Assembly (NCBI GenBank): GCA_028280415.1 | Contig: JANQLV010000043.1 | Location: forward strand, 1 to 64,000 | Length of the DNA stretch: 64,000 nucleotides | Reading direction: 5' to 3' | From: Saprospiraceae bacterium | Lineage (GTDB): Bacteria > Bacteroidota > Bacteroidia > Chitinophagales > Saprospiraceae | Shown: piece by piece, positions 32,573-38,579 of the stretch | Layout of the letters: each line of letters opens with the position of its first letter | How positions within the stretch are numbered: the stretch's first letter is position 1 | Notes under the pieces: generated by a model | Told to the model about the DNA's origin: nothing | Seen by the model: the letters and a program-made list of their open reading frames with translations, nothing else | Database searches by the model: none | Position numbers and translations under genes: made by a program

Positions 32573-32630
32573 AAAGGTTTGCTTTTCGATATTCAAAAAC
32601 CAAAAATCGAATATTGAAAAGCAAGCCTTT
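32573..32630 (-). terminator. Long stem-loop terminator of the MbnP/diheme operon
   Basis: A stem of ~22 bp (32573-32594 with 32609-32630), with two G-U pairs and a 14-base loop, overlaps the last gene's stop. Tails on both strands are only moderately T-rich, so it may serve both directions weakly or protect the mRNA end. Confidence 0.6.
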
Positions 32631-33760
32631 TATTCAAAGGGATTCTGGTGAGCCGGATTATTCATAAAAACCGTATCCGTAAGTGTGTGGAGAAAAGTAA
32701 TGATGGCATCTCTTTCTTCAATACTCATAGGGAAAGGCTGGATATTGGGATCGAGATTAGGTGCACAAAATCCACCTGAGCTATAGTGATCCAAAACTTC
32801 CTCAAGCGTTTCAAACCGGCCATCATGCATATAAGGACCAGTATGAGCAATATTTAAAAGGGTAGGCACCCGAAACTTCCCGTAGTCGAAAATATTTCCG
32901 GTGACTTCTCCTAAACCAATATCAGGAAAGTTATTAAGATGTTCTACATCACAACCACCGAGATCCTCTATTCCATTATTGAGGAATCTATGATCTGTAA
33001 ACATCTGATTGAAAGTTTTATGGCAATGGGTACATCCGGGATGTTCATTCTCTTCAAATATAAAAAGCTCGAAGCCTTCCTGTTCTTCAGGAGTAAAGAA
33101 AATACCCGGTACATTCCGTACCTGCTCATACTTGGATTGACCACTGCTCACCAAAGTACGCTCAAATTGAGCAATGGCTTTAGCGGCTAATTCCTTGGTA
33201 ATTTCACTCCTGGATTCAATACCAAAAGCTTTGCGAAACATGGTCGGATAATTTTCATGCTCTTTGAATTTGTCTACAACATTTGGCCACTGATTATGCA
33301 TCTCGATCGGGTCTTCTACCGGAAGTAAAGCCTGTTCTTCCAAAGTCGAAGAGCGCCCATCCCAAAAAAGACCTTCATAAACATAACCAATATTCAATAA
33401 GGACATTGAACTTCTCCTGCCAGCAATTCCATCAATCCCGACACTCACCGCCAATTGATCTGTGAAGCTACCACTTGGAGCATGGCAGGAGGCACAGGAC
33501 ATCGTACTATCCGCAGATAAAATCGGATCATAAAAAAGATGCCGCCCCAACTCTACACCATCTACAGTAAGTGGATTATCACTCGGGATTTCCATCTGTG
33601 GATAACCCTCTGGAACAACCAGGTTATATGCGACAGGATCATAAGGAATATCCGAGAGATCACCCGGCATTCCATCATCATCCGGTGTTACTCCTTCGTC
33701 ATCACCACAAGCAGAAAGAATCAGTCCGAATGCAAAAAAGAATAAATATAATCGTCGCAT
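32630..33760 (-). CDS. Diheme cytochrome-c peroxidase/MauG-family lipoprotein (copy 2)
   Basis: A 376-residue lipoprotein with lipobox LSAC (Cys18). Two c-type haem sites are present, CASCH (89-93) and CTHCH (243-247). It also has the conserved family segments LLNIGYVYEGLFWDGRSSTL, EEQALLPVEDP and GPYMHDGRFETLEEV; the last supplies a probable axial Met. The family includes H2O2-reducing cytochrome c peroxidases and MauG/MbnH enzymes that oxidise tryptophan in a partner protein. It lies last in a run of two MbnP-like and two diheme genes on one strand. That context favours an MbnH-type role over plain peroxide removal, but sequence alone does not decide it. Confidence 0.88.
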   Translation of the reverse strand: MRRLYLFFFAFGLILSACGDDEGVTPDDDGMPGDLSDIPYDPVAYNLVVPEGYPQMEIPSDNPLTVDGVELGRHLFYDPILSADSTMSCASCHAPSGSFTDQLAVSVGIDGIAGRRSSMSLLNIGYVYEGLFWDGRSSTLEEQALLPVEDPIEMHNQWPNVVDKFKEHENYPTMFRKAFGIESRSEITKELAAKAIAQFERTLVSSGQSKYEQVRNVPGIFFTPEEQEGFELFIFEENEHPGCTHCHKTFNQMFTDHRFLNNGIEDLGGCDVEHLNNFPDIGLGEVTGNIFDYGKFRVPTLLNIAHTGPYMHDGRFETLEEVLDHYSSGGFCAPNLDPNIQPFPMSIEERDAIITFLHTLTDTVFMNNPAHQNPFE

Positions 33761-33825
33761 ATTTTAATTTTTTAGGTATCAGGCTTTCCAAAAGCGAATA
33801 TACGTATAATTTAAAAGCTTAAATT

Positions 33826-34905
33826 TCAATTTTGTTGTGTAAAGTTAGGGTCAGTTAATGTTTCTAAAAAAGCAATTAGCTGTCTTTTTTGGACTTCATT
33901 CAAATTTAATGGCCGGATCAGGGGAGATACATTGGGTCCGTGTTTGCCTCCGGAATTATAATGCTCAATGACTTCTTCCAGGGTTTTGAACCGTCCATCG
34001 TGCATATAGGGTGCCGTTAAGATGATATTTCGCAAACTGGGAACTCTGAACTTCCCGTTATCCAATGGATTACCGGTGATCAATCCATAGCCTTTATCCG
34101 TGAAATCTTCCGTGGTAAATGCTTCGCTTATTCCATTATTCAAATACTCATTAGTGGTCATCAAAGGAGCATTATGGCAATGTCCGCATTCGGCATCGGG
34201 TAAATCCGGGCTGGCATCGAAAAATAACTCATATCCCCTCATTTCTTCTTCGGAAAGCACCGCCTCTCCCCTGCGAAAACGATCAAATTTGGTATTGCCA
34301 CTAATTAATGATCTCTCATATTGAGCAATTGCTTTTACCGCCAGATATTTATCCATTTCTTCAATGCTGGAAATTCCAAAAGCTTTCCTAAACAGGGCAG
34401 GATATTCAGAGTGTTTTTTTAATCGGTTCAGCACTTCATCCCAGGAATTGTGCAATTCCACACTATCTTCCACCGGCAGTAAAGCCTGTTCTTCCAAAGT
34501 CTTTACCCGGCCGTCCCAAAATAATCCTTCCCGGTAATAGGCGACGTTGATTAAAGACATTGCACTCCTGATGCCTTCTTTGCCATCAATTCCCGTACTC
34601 CGTGCTTTTTTATCGGTCATTGCCAGATGTGGGAAATGACAAGAGGAACAAGACATCGTATTATCCGCGGATAATAAGGGATCAAAAAACAATTTTTCAC
34701 CAAGAGAAACCCCTTCTACCGTTCCGGGATTATCTTTCGGAACTTCAAACCTTGGAAAACCTTCCGGCAAATTATAAGGATAAGGCTTGGGACGATAAGA
34801 AATATGCGTAAGTTCACCGGGTGCCGGTGGCTTGGTTTTATCCTTGCACGTAAACAACATTACTACGCAAAGACATAGCAATGAAACAAGGAGGGCTTTG
34901 TACAT
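33826..34905 (-). CDS. Diheme cytochrome-c peroxidase/MauG-family lipoprotein (copy 1)
   Basis: A 359-residue paralogue of the next gene downstream. It has lipobox MLFTC (Cys20), haem motifs CSSCH (86-90) and CGHCH (240-244), the segments VAYYREGLFWDGRVKTLEEQ and APYMHDGRFKTLEEV, and predicted periplasmic location. Its ATG follows the stop of the first MbnP-like gene after only three bases, so the two are translated from one message. The copies share layout throughout but differ clearly, so the duplication is not recent. The likely reaction is H2O2-driven oxidation through paired haems; the partner is inferred to be the MbnP-like lipoprotein. Confidence 0.88.
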   Translation of the reverse strand: MYKALLVSLLCLCVVMLFTCKDKTKPPAPGELTHISYRPKPYPYNLPEGFPRFEVPKDNPGTVEGVSLGEKLFFDPLLSADNTMSCSSCHFPHLAMTDKKARSTGIDGKEGIRSAMSLINVAYYREGLFWDGRVKTLEEQALLPVEDSVELHNSWDEVLNRLKKHSEYPALFRKAFGISSIEEMDKYLAVKAIAQYERSLISGNTKFDRFRRGEAVLSEEEMRGYELFFDASPDLPDAECGHCHNAPLMTTNEYLNNGISEAFTTEDFTDKGYGLITGNPLDNGKFRVPSLRNIILTAPYMHDGRFKTLEEVIEHYNSGGKHGPNVSPLIRPLNLNEVQKRQLIAFLETLTDPNFTQQN

Positions 34906-34908
34906 ATT

Positions 34909-35730
34909 TTATTGTTCTAAAAGCGTGGCTTCGGAGTAATTACGCATCAATTGTTTAGCAATAATCAACTCCTCTTCCTGATTGCCATGTGCTCCGTCAT
35001 AAACTTCAATATCCAATAGATTATCGTCATTGGTATCGAACTGATCTATCGGCATATTGAAAAGTTTCTTTACATCAATATCGATATAGATTTCCAGCTT
35101 TTGTCCATCTTCAACGACGATTGGATCAGAAGGAAAGATAATTCGCTCGGTGTAAACTTCATCTCTGCCAAGGTGGAAAGTAAAACCTTCCCCTTCGGAA
35201 GTTTCGTATATCCCATCATTGTCTTTATCCACAAAGCCTTCGATTTTGGAAAAAATATAGCTATCCAGAGGAGCCCAATAATGAGAAGAGGTAGCGAGTA
35301 CATCTCCTGAACCGTAATCATTGGGACTGGTTCGATTCAAATCAGCCGGAACTCCAAAACCAATTTTAAAACCCTTATAGGAGCCCGCTGGTACCTTTTT
35401 AGTAAAAACGGTATCTCCCTCTTCGGCTCTGGATTGCTGATTGATATCAAAGCTCAAATCCACAAAGTCAATTTCAACTAATTCTGATTCATCAGTAGAA
35501 CTTTCCTCTTTAAGAAGACTGATATTGGATACATAAAGATCAAAAGTGGAAAACTTGATCGACATATCCGGTATGTATTCGTAATCTTTTTGAGTCAAAA
35601 ACAGTTCCCCGTCGTAATTTGCCCGAAAGATGATTTCAACATCTCCAACCACCTCCATTTCAGGATCTTTATCACATGAACTTGCTATAAAAATTGGCAA
35701 GGATATCAGTATAATTAATATTTTTCTCAT
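34909..35730 (-). CDS. MbnP-like lipoprotein (copy 1)
   Basis: A 273-residue lipoprotein with lipobox IASSC (Cys19). The domain begins with VEIIFRANYDGELFL. It has an LYVSNISLL strand, a GSYKGFKIGFGVPADLN segment and a SSHYWAPLDSYIFSKIEGF segment. These correspond to the MbnP family pattern, in which an aromatic motif with Trp (here Trp152) precedes the Gly-Tyr strand. MbnP proteins bind copper after a diheme partner converts a Trp to kynurenine. I chose ATG 35730 because the signal sequence starts there; the in-frame ATG at 35778 adds 16 residues. It abuts the diheme gene by three bases. The assignment rests on remembered motif similarity and context. Confidence 0.72.
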   Translation of the reverse strand: MRKILIILISLPIFIASSCDKDPEMEVVGDVEIIFRANYDGELFLTQKDYEYIPDMSIKFSTFDLYVSNISLLKEESSTDESELVEIDFVDLSFDINQQSRAEEGDTVFTKKVPAGSYKGFKIGFGVPADLNRTSPNDYGSGDVLATSSHYWAPLDSYIFSKIEGFVDKDNDGIYETSEGEGFTFHLGRDEVYTERIIFPSDPIVVEDGQKLEIYIDIDVKKLFNMPIDQFDTNDDNLLDIEVYDGAHGNQEEELIIAKQLMRNYSEATLLEQ

Positions 35731-35830
35731 TATAAGAATATTAAAAGTTTGGCAAAACGAACTCATACAAATTAACAAAAATTCGAATTACTTGTTGTCA
35801 TGAAAATGTACGAAAGTATTTAATTGTATA

Positions 35831-36667
35831 CTAGTTATCAATAGAAAAGGCATTTGTAGTATTTGTGACAATTTTTTCGGTAATCGTAACACTATCTTCT
35901 GCAACAAAATTTATGCCTGAGAACCATTTTTTATAGTCAATTTTCAGCGGTATTGTAACACTAGAACCCAAATCCAGAGATTGGGGAAAAGGCAATGTTA
36001 TACGCTGTATATTGGAAGGACCTTTCAGATCAAACTGCCTTTTCGAATCGACCTCCATGGTATCAGGAATAATGATTACCCGGTTGAATACATAACCCTC
36101 AGGATAAGTCCAGATTGTAGAATCCACCGATAATGCCAGCGCATGGTCCTCGGGCACTGTTTCCACATTAATAAACTCTGCATTTCCCAATAAACCCACC
36201 ACAAAACTCAGGCTGTCATATTGCCCGCTACCCCTGATTTCTCCGATATCGTAATCAAAGGAAAGAATACTTCGACTGACCAGTGTAAAGTCATCCTTAA
36301 AGCTCTCTGCACCTCCGTTGATAATATCAAAACTCATCACCTCATTTACTTCCAGGGTATCTGAACTACCAAATAATTTGAATTCTGAAAGATAAAAGAC
36401 CACTTCTTCGAAACGGCCCACATTGCCTTCGAAAATGTATAGCGAATCATAACTAAACCGAAAAGAATCCTGAAAGCTATGAAAAACTTCCAGATTAATC
36501 CTCGGATAAGTACAGCAATCGGGACAAGGGTTGTCGGCCGCTACATTATAATTGGATGCTTCGATATCCAGACAGCCTTCGACCGGATCTTTACAAGCGG
36601 AAATAAACAAAGCAAACAGGACAATCAGGATTGCCTGATTAATAATTCTATTGTTTACTCTGTTCAT
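35831..36667 (-). CDS. MbnP-like lipoprotein with extra Cys-rich N-terminus (copy 2)
   Basis: A 278-residue lipoprotein with lipobox FISAC (Cys25). It is followed by a short Cys-rich segment (GCLDIEASNYN...CPDCC) resembling the Ca/metal-binding-like insert seen in many Bacteroidota surface proteins. An MbnP-like domain follows: VVFYLSEFKLFG, YDSLSFVVGLLG and DSTIWTYPEGYVFNRVIII, with Trp186 at the aligned aromatic position. The start codon overlaps the end of the exonuclease gene by 20 bp. The gene lies 100 bp upstream of the first MbnP-like copy. Similarity to MbnP is weaker than for copy 1. Confidence 0.65.
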   Translation of the reverse strand: MNRVNNRIINQAILIVLFALFISACKDPVEGCLDIEASNYNVAADNPCPDCCTYPRINLEVFHSFQDSFRFSYDSLYIFEGNVGRFEEVVFYLSEFKLFGSSDTLEVNEVMSFDIINGGAESFKDDFTLVSRSILSFDYDIGEIRGSGQYDSLSFVVGLLGNAEFINVETVPEDHALALSVDSTIWTYPEGYVFNRVIIIPDTMEVDSKRQFDLKGPSNIQRITLPFPQSLDLGSSVTIPLKIDYKKWFSGINFVAEDSVTITEKIVTNTTNAFSIDN

Positions 36668-37466
36668 ATTCTTTTACCAGTTTTTTCACTATTTGCTTGA
36701 CCTGGAACGAAAACTCTTTATTCAAAATCCAGTGATAATACTGCTTGTCTTTTGAAAGGATTTCGGCAACAGGCTGCCCGACGTATTTTCCAAAATTGAA
36801 AATGACAATACCTTCACTATTGTATTTGAGCCTTTGAGTGGCATCAATTGTTTTTAAATCATTGGTAAATTCGTGGATTTGCTGCATATCATTTTTGATC
36901 GGCGACTCGATCACATTTCCATCTTCATCAATTAGATTAACGCCTTCGTAGCGTTTTAATTGCCCTTTAAATACATCGACAGTAGCTTTGACATCCGCCA
37001 GGGCATCATGGGCATCTGTTAATTCTTTATCACAATAAAATCTGAGTGCAGCTCTCAGTGTCCGCGGTTCCATTTTATAAAATATACGCTGAATATCGAG
37101 ACATCGCCTTCTATTCATATCCAGCTCCAAGCCGACTCTGGCAAACTCTTCCATTAATAAGGGGATGTCAAAACGATTAGAATTATATCCGGCTAAATCT
37201 GCTTTTCCAATAAAATCAAAAAGCTTTTGTGCAACCTGCTGGAAAGTAGGTTTGTTGCGCAAATCTTTCGGTGTAATCCCATGAACTTTCATAGCCTCTT
37301 CCGAGATTGGGATTCCGGGATTGATCAGCATGACCAATTCTTCAGGCTCATTGCCGTTTTTAAAATACTTGACAATCGCAATTTGTACAATGCGATCTCT
37401 GATCACATTTAGTCCGGTAGCTTCGATATCAAAAAAACACAAGTCTCTATCTAAATTAAATGACAT
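36648..37466 (-). CDS. DnaQ-like 3'-5' exonuclease with C-terminal DUF3820-like domain
   Basis: A 272-residue cytoplasmic protein of the DEDDh exonuclease superfamily. ExoI FFDIEATG supplies D13 and E15, ExoII GYNSNRFD supplies D100, and ExoIII AHDALADV supplies H153 and D158, so the active site is intact. The C-terminal ~60 residues (FNFGKYVGQPVAEI...YYHWILNKEF) match the DUF3820 pattern. Such proteins can be proofreading subunits or stand-alone nucleases; no polymerase is nearby. Its end overlaps the MbnP-like gene. A -7-like TAACTTTG at 37514-37507, over the ApbE stop, may give it its own weak promoter. Confidence 0.88.
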   Translation of the reverse strand: MSFNLDRDLCFFDIEATGLNVIRDRIVQIAIVKYFKNGNEPEELVMLINPGIPISEEAMKVHGITPKDLRNKPTFQQVAQKLFDFIGKADLAGYNSNRFDIPLLMEEFARVGLELDMNRRRCLDIQRIFYKMEPRTLRAALRFYCDKELTDAHDALADVKATVDVFKGQLKRYEGVNLIDEDGNVIESPIKNDMQQIHEFTNDLKTIDATQRLKYNSEGIVIFNFGKYVGQPVAEILSKDKQYYHWILNKEFSFQVKQIVKKLVKEYEQSKQ

Positions 37467-37511
37467 ATTCTTAGTTATAAAGTTATTGGATAGGTAAATG
37501 GTTATACAAAG

Positions 37512-38579
37512 TTAATTTGAAAAGCCAAGATTTGGAGCAGTAGCCCTGGATTTTATATTTCCGGACTCATCACTGTAGAGAAAATAGGCTTCTACATTCT
37601 CCAAACGGCTAATCATCTCCACCCCCCGTTCAAGTCCCATAGCCATACAAGCAGTGGCATAGGCATCGGCAGTCATGCAATCCGGAGCGAGAATGGTTGC
37701 ACTGAGTAAGGTGTTTTTTTCCGGAAAGCCGGTTTTAGAATTAATCGTATGCGCGTATTTTACACCATTTATTTCATAAAAATTGCGGTAATTTCCTGAA
37801 GTGGCCAGGGCCTGATTTTGTAATTTAATTTTTGACTGTATTTCTGTTAGCGGAGCATCCTCTTTAGGTTTGCTGATTCCTACCGTCCACCAATCCTGCT
37901 TGGGGTTTTTTCCTTTCACCCGCAACTCTCCGCCAATTTCCACATAATAATTTTGCACCCCTTTTTTATCCAATAAGCGCGTCACAGCATCCACTCCATA
38001 CCCTTTTGCAATAGCACTAAAGTCGAGTTGGATCCCTGCATGCTCCTTTTTCAAATATACCCAGCCATCTTCTGTACTTCGCTGGCTTACTTTTTCAAAT
38101 CCGACAAATTCCATTAAGGAATCAATCTTCATTTTATCTGCTTCCACCACAGGACGTTTCTCCGTATATCCAAAGCCCCAGTAATTTACAATGGGCATAA
38201 TCGTAGGATCAAAATATCCCTCCGTATTTTGATAGACCTCTTTTGCTTTTTCAAAATTCGCTTTGAAATGTAAAGGAGGGTTCTTTCCCTTTTTTAAAAG
38301 ATTCAAATACTGAATCTCATCAGCACTTTTATTAAACCTGGAAATAAAGGATTCCGGTTCATAGGTAGATACTTCATTGTTTACAGCTATCAGCAATTGA
38401 TCAATTTCAGGTTTAAAATCCCTGTTCAGTGAATCCAAATATTTTATAGAATAGTTTGTTCCCATTGTTTTCCCGGTCAAAGCCAGATACTCTGCTTGCG
38501 GTGAAGATGCCTGTTGATCCGTTTTACACGAAAAAAAGCATATCAAAATCCCCAGCCCTAATAAATAGCGTATTTTCAA
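37512..38579 (-). CDS. apbE: FAD:protein FMN transferase (ApbE), lipoprotein
   Basis: A 355-residue lipoprotein (MKIRYLLGLGILICFFSC, Cys18). It attaches FMN covalently to threonine of periplasmic-facing flavoproteins such as Na+-NQR or Rnf subunits. Family motifs are present: LTGKTMGTNYSIKY near the start, AIAKGYGVDAVTRLL and VEIGGELRVKGKNP in the middle, and YAHTINSKTGFP with ATILAPDCMTADAYATACM in the flavin/Mg site at the C-terminal half. Length is normal for the family. Its flavoprotein substrate is not encoded in the window. The exonuclease gene follows after 45 bp. Confidence 0.94.
   Translation of the reverse strand: MKIRYLLGLGILICFFSCKTDQQASSPQAEYLALTGKTMGTNYSIKYLDSLNRDFKPEIDQLLIAVNNEVSTYEPESFISRFNKSADEIQYLNLLKKGKNPPLHFKANFEKAKEVYQNTEGYFDPTIMPIVNYWGFGYTEKRPVVEADKMKIDSLMEFVGFEKVSQRSTEDGWVYLKKEHAGIQLDFSAIAKGYGVDAVTRLLDKKGVQNYYVEIGGELRVKGKNPKQDWWTVGISKPKEDAPLTEIQSKIKLQNQALATSGNYRNFYEINGVKYAHTINSKTGFPEKNTLLSATILAPDCMTADAYATACMAMGLERGVEMISRLENVEAYFLYSDESGNIKSRATAPNLGFSN

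Follow-up and report, generated by a model that had tools for sequence, protein, structure and literature searches.

A conserved lipoprotein cluster of Saprospiraceae as a putative methanobactin-independent MbnP/MbnH-type system

Here we describe a cluster of four lipoprotein genes from a Saprospiraceae bacterium, found in a stretch of 64,000 nucleotides (assembly GCA_028280415.1, contig JANQLV010000043.1, positions 1 to 64,000; hereafter the window). Two of the genes encode small proteins of the MbnP family, called here MbnP-A and MbnP-B, and two encode diheme proteins resembling MauG and MbnH, called DH1 and DH2. All are on the minus strand. Reading along that strand, the order is MbnP-A (36667..35831, 278 amino acids), MbnP-B (35730..34909, 273 amino acids, the ATG at 35730 being chosen over an upstream TTG), DH1 (34905..33826, 359 amino acids) and DH2 (33760..32630, 376 amino acids). 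A first-pass annotation of the window had described these genes as a duplicated MbnP-diheme cassette lying outside any methanobactin locus. The layout that it gave is correct: the four genes share a strand, the four N-termini resemble lipoprotein signals when read by eye from the sequence, the DH1 ATG follows the MbnP-B stop after three bases, and each diheme has exactly two CxxCH motifs (at residues 86 and 240 in DH1, and at 89 and 243 in DH2).

The assignment of both small lipoproteins to the MbnP family also stood when examined by profile search. Against the Pfam MbnP family (PF20243, curated cut-off 27 bits), MbnP-B scored 85.1 bits (E 7.3e-24) and MbnP-A 40.9 bits (E 2.7e-10). The predicted folds of the two proteins match that of the solved MbnP, 7l6g, far above the other rows of the comparison. 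Searches with more demanding models gave less. The NCBIfam equivalog TIGR04052 requires 140 bits, and MbnP-B reached 36.6 while MbnP-A found no match; canonical MbnP copies of the same order fail it too, at 28.3 and 53.9 bits. A phmmer search of MbnP-B against the PDB returned a chance match only (E 0.27), and a profile of canonical MbnP found 7l6g weakly (E 0.024). In a tree, MbnP-A, MbnP-B and canonical MbnP form one clade each, with Shimodaira-Hasegawa-like approximate likelihood ratio test (SH-aLRT) supports of 99, 99 and 96. The cassette is thus not duplicated in the sense of a recent copy. Each MbnP type is a clade of its own, and loci across the family repeat the order of the genes. A recent local duplication is rejected for the dihemes as well, since DH1 and DH2 together, like types A and B, represent old groups.

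Manesis et al. (2021) reportedly found that the first Trp of the WxW motif of MbnP is converted to kynurenine and that a His and a Met bind copper. We compared the corresponding positions in a joint alignment of 51 MbnP-B, 57 MbnP-A and 18 canonical rows, the last including a fragment of 7l6g. We take the column that holds Trp152 of MbnP-B to be that of the converted Trp, and the Met two residues before it to be the copper ligand. The canonical rows have the Trp in 18 of 18, the Met in 17 of 18 and the ligand His in 18 of 18. Seventeen of these rows come from a script that required a W.W motif and plus orientation, so that the conservation of the Trp is in part a product of selection; the Met and the His were not selected for. 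In MbnP-B, Trp152 (codon 35275..35277) is the only Trp of the protein and its column has Trp in 48 of the 51 rows. His186 (35173..35175) lies in the column of the canonical ligand His, which is His in 46 of 51 MbnP-B and in one of the 57 MbnP-A. Both columns are among the seven that are invariant in an alignment of 27 MbnP-B rows, and all three MbnP-B rows that lack the Trp also lack the ligand His.

The place of the canonical Met is occupied in the window by His150 (35281..35283), and in MbnP-B as a class by Asn (24 rows), His (19) or other residues (8). A second Trp, as in WxW, stands at +2 in six MbnP-B rows and at +3 in 28, and is missing from 17. Neither protein of the window has the second Trp of WxW, the residues from the aligned Trp onward being W-A-P-L in MbnP-B and W-T-Y-P in MbnP-A. 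We also considered whether a His in an HPL motif compensates for the lack of His150. The raw association among the 46 intact MbnP-B was suggestive (Fisher p 0.010), but on the tree it came down to one supported pair and was not significant.

MbnP-A is different. It has two Trp residues in all, Trp186 (36110..36112) and Trp248. The first-pass annotation had placed Trp152 and Trp186 at aligned positions; they do share a column of the joint alignment, but the MbnP-A Trp is not conserved among orthologues, 7 of the 57 MbnP-A having a Trp exactly there and 12 having one within three columns. The ligand His is missing from 56 of the 57, the window copy included, and the place of the Met has Met in 22 (Thr in the window copy). 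Considering these residues, MbnP-A is most likely a siteless paralogue that is not oxidised. Trp248, near the C-terminus, is conserved (in a column of 24 rows, at more than 90%). The Cys-rich N-terminus that had been pointed out in one MbnP copy is real and belongs to MbnP-A. It spans residues 31-55 (36503..36577) and has four Cys beyond the lipidation Cys, all four conserved: in 41 rows, C32 is kept in 40, C48 in 36, C51 in 36 and C52 in 40. The element, GCLDIEASNYNVAADNPCPDCCTYP, resembles GCTDPEAENYNNDADEDDGTCTYA of an unrelated lipoprotein of 154 amino acids from the same genome (locus L214, 1526-1990), and looks like a small module shared by the two lipoproteins.

The two dihemes belong to the Pfam family CCP_MauG (E 4.6e-55 for DH1 and 8.6e-53 for DH2). 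The NCBIfam MbnH model TIGR04039 gives them 259.2 and 252.5 bits, below its cut-off of 362.85; partners of canonical MbnP from the same order score 202.7 and 207.7, so that all of them fall under the cut-off. When DH1 was the query, the best PDB chain was 6e1c (a 'Di-heme enzyme', 4.7e-48), which we take to be MbnH, and the CcpA chain 1iqc followed (4.4e-41). The axial position is Met in 1iqc and Tyr in 6e1c. It is Tyr in DH1 (Tyr316, 33958..33960) and DH2 (Tyr326, 32783..32785) and, more generally, in 33/33 DH1, 41/41 DH2 and 29/29 partners of canonical MbnP. In a tree, DH1 and DH2 form one group (SH-aLRT 97) and the canonical partners another (99). The dihemes do not cluster with classical CcpA peroxidases, standing apart from two CcpA fragments (SH-aLRT 99, with long-branch warnings), a point on which the first-pass annotation is supported. 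With its long branch, the 6e1c fragment comes out basally in the tree, and any special kinship of DH1 and DH2 to it would be tentative. At another locus (L008, 1276-2667) we came across a diheme MauG-like protein with a sorting tail of the type IX secretion system (T9SS), which suggests a secreted or surface version.

How widespread is the cluster? Of 248 genomes from the order, 210 have MbnP, and of 150 from the family, 136 have matches to MbnP-A, a few of these matches covering the Cys-rich element only. To follow the gene order, 40 matches hand-chosen for their spread of scores were combined with 25 more, and removal of seven duplicates from the 65 left 58 unique loci. MbnP-A, MbnP-B and a diheme are contiguous in 43 of these, with two dihemes in 25 and one in 18. 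Of the other 15, MbnP-B stands alone in two and is missing from four, which have MbnP-A and one diheme; in the remaining nine, MbnP-A has no diheme at the locus, though MbnP-B is there in four of the nine. Some loci stop at contig ends, where genes counted as missing may have been cut off. The locus nearest to that of the window is assigned to the same genus (L115). The cultured species Phaeodactylibacter xiamenensis also has an MbnP-B orthologue (L136). MbnP-A is preceded in most loci by two further genes, which in the window are an RNase_T/ExoX-like exonuclease gene (36648..37466, by Pfam) and a gene of the ApbE flavin transferase family (37512..38579, Pfam ApbE 8e-81), both on the minus strand. 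The exonuclease gene shares 20 bases with the start of MbnP-A, and is not thought to be part of the mechanism. In some loci a T9SS-sorted subtilase follows the cluster. A scan for promoters and terminators yielded nothing that bears on the reading. The cluster is thus an old arrangement of Saprospiraceae: ApbE, exonuclease, MbnP-A, MbnP-B and one or two dihemes. The ApbE and exonuclease genes (36648-38579 in the window) stay before MbnP-A even where MbnP-B and the dihemes are gone. Another arrangement with several MbnP genes was seen at L142, L143 and L152 (genomes G158, G155 and G198), where an MbnP-B-like gene, an MbnP with an M-H-W-N-W motif and a diheme are in tandem.

Loci with missing, parted or damaged genes offer a view of which genes go with which. 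Fourteen genomes were picked for such loci; all were searched for MbnP and eight for dihemes of the DH type. Where the locus has MbnP-A and a diheme (G198, G346, G155 and G158), an MbnP-B with both Trp and His is found elsewhere in the genome, in four of four. Where MbnP-A is alone (G287, G339, G264 and G068), MbnP-B adjoins a DH-type diheme elsewhere, again in four of four. MbnP-A and MbnP-B at the locus go with DH-type dihemes elsewhere in both genomes of that kind (G196 and G111), and a local MbnP-B without Trp and His goes with an intact MbnP-B elsewhere in both others (G331 and G308). Taken together, the genomes that have DH-type dihemes but keep MbnP-A apart from MbnP-B all carry, at another site, an MbnP-B that retains Trp and His (8/8). 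In G306, which has MbnP-A only, both MbnP-B and DH-type dihemes are missing (best score 78.8 bits). Overall, 12 of the 14 genomes combine an intact MbnP-B with a DH-type diheme, one lacks both and one (G280) has MbnP-B only. In these genomes, then, MbnP-B and the DH-type dihemes mostly travel together, and MbnP-A is free of both.

The likeness to the MbnP/MbnH pair of methanotrophs consists of the MbnP fold, an MbnP-B with the reactive Trp and the ligand His, and an adjoining diheme with an axial Tyr. The system of the window differs in having no Met ligand, no second Trp of WxW, an extra siteless MbnP, two dihemes and NCBIfam scores below cut-off, and in having no MbnB-family gene in the genome. 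On this last point, the first-pass annotation had seen no mbnA, mbnB or mbnC gene; the search of the whole genome covered the MbnB family (PF05114), not mbnA or mbnC, and found no match, PF05114 being detected in 2 of 14 control genomes. A second comparison is with the canonical WxW MbnP-MbnH pairs found in Chitinophagales-like relatives. They belong to the same families and the MbnP adjoins a diheme, a gene with two CxxCH motifs lying within the examined stretch of 28 of the 30 best MbnP loci; they differ in forming separate clades for both proteins and in keeping Met-x-Trp-x-Trp and the His (17-18 of 18). The genome of the window, which has three MbnP genes and ten CCP_MauG genes, includes one such pair. 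Its third MbnP, on contig C66 (L014, 8482-10419), is canonical (FWNWNAGY) with its own diheme, and has Trp in place of the Met of the motif.

A third comparison is with MopE/SACCP and CorA/CorB of methanotrophs, where a copper protein adjoins a diheme and the copper site consists of two His and a kynurenine (PMC3423442, PMC3912023). The MbnP-B of the window offers a potentially comparable set in Trp152, His150 and His186. In CorA the first His comes two residues after the kynurenine (Kyn62, His64, His114; PMC3912023), whereas in MbnP-B the His is two residues before the Trp, and 32 of the 51 MbnP-B lack it. In general comparisons no fold or sequence match of MopE or CorA to MbnP proteins turned up, a direct comparison not being among them.

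Of the possible readings, we favor, with some reserve, a methanobactin-independent envelope system of the MbnP/MbnH type in which the dihemes act on MbnP-B and MbnP-A is siteless. Its basis is family membership, fold, residue conservation, the axial Tyr, synteny and co-occurrence. DH1, DH2 or both would oxidise Trp152 of MbnP-B to kynurenine, which with His186, and probably His150, would form a copper site without the canonical Met. The two dihemes could be redundant or act sequentially. MbnP-A has kept the fold and carries the Cys-rich element as an addition, while most of its orthologues no longer have the site residues; it is probably no substrate for oxidation, and would serve a separate role that can be retained without dihemes.

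Several observations weigh against this reading. The Met ligand is missing from all 51 MbnP-B, and where its place is taken by Asn (24) or by other residues (8) no second ligand is apparent. His150 would not be a general answer, as the 32 rows without His there indicate that a set of two His and kynurenine is not class-wide. Two MbnP-B (L133 and L134) have the Trp without the His. The residue map itself depends on a profile hit to 7l6g that is weak (E 0.024) and on a published abstract. On the side of the dihemes, the MbnH model is non-specific: three unpaired dihemes of the genome match it as well (170.7-214 bits), for which reason a best match in NCBIfam was rejected as proof of an MbnH. The axial Tyr likewise occurs in each of the four unpaired dihemes aligned from this genome, and excludes CcpA only. 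In one genome, G280, MbnP-B is present without a DH-type diheme, the best score of 347 bits belonging to the partner of another MbnP (the assembly is 95% complete, in 430 contigs). Finally, no copper gene family was matched among 20 neighbouring proteins of the window, a scan that took in 20 of the 35 other open reading frames of at least 150 amino acids, six of the 20 matching nothing.

The dihemes could also divide the labor, one serving as the tryptophan oxidase and the other as its peroxide-removing or electron-donating partner. They differ throughout their sequences and fall largely into two groups, and each is singly lost in some loci. Both, however, keep the axial Tyr and the two haem motifs in all rows, and since either type is found in single-diheme loci, neither can be always needed. 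Nor do DH1 and DH2 make two clean clades: the labels require four and three changes on the tree, so that single-diheme loci are not cleanly assigned. We regard such a division as unlikely. Alternatively, the dihemes might be envelope peroxidases, and MbnP-B a lipoprotein with a redox or metal function, left unmodified by them. In Pfam the dihemes fit the general family CCP_MauG best, and their alignments show the Gln and the Glu that belong to the peroxidase pocket. But Tyr replaces the axial Met, Trp152 and His186 are conserved together and in the three Trp losses are lost together, and MbnP-B and the dihemes co-occur in the 12 genomes mentioned; we see little chance of this being the case. 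The proposal of the first-pass annotation, two enzyme-substrate pairs with one MbnP oxidised per diheme, fares worst and is very improbable: although two dihemes are present and MbnP-A of the window has a Trp in the aligned column, with one nearby in its close relative L075, such a Trp is near the column in only 12 of 57 MbnP-A and the His is there in one, the Trp does not track the number of local dihemes (it is seen in 4 of 25 two-diheme loci, 3 of 22 single-diheme loci and 4 of 9 loci lacking any), only one diheme is present in 18 of the 43 contiguous loci, and G306 has MbnP-A without DH-type dihemes.

The occurrence of MbnP/MbnH pairs outside methanobactin loci is not in itself new, and the first-pass annotation overstated its novelty. 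Their conservation far beyond methanobactin producers was in print in 2013 (PMC3621798), and MbnPH-like genes have been noted in other copper operons (PMC9426467). In the open-licence literature, no publication treating the cluster, or MbnP proteins of Saprospiraceae, was found among the matches listed. Relative to the literature searched, the new elements are the cluster itself and two kinds of MbnP in it, the Met-free MbnP-B class and the siteless MbnP-A. A more ambitious formulation would see in them a distinct Saprospiraceae class of MbnP, with a Met-free kynurenine site (two His and kynurenine in the window, Asn or another residue in most other members), duplicated dedicated dihemes and a site-erased MbnP paralogue that acts in docking or exchange and not as a metal carrier. 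We offer it tentatively, as possible but somewhat doubtful.

In closing, if the envelope system with MbnP-B as the substrate of the dihemes is true, copper sites made by Trp oxidation would belong to the core gene order in a large family of environmental bacteria, far from the methanotrophs, and the metal site would tolerate the loss of its Met ligand. With Met, His and Asn as a natural series beside the kynurenine, the role of that ligand could be tested directly, and a comparison of loci whose dihemes are single, double or unlinked would reveal the oxidising enzyme.

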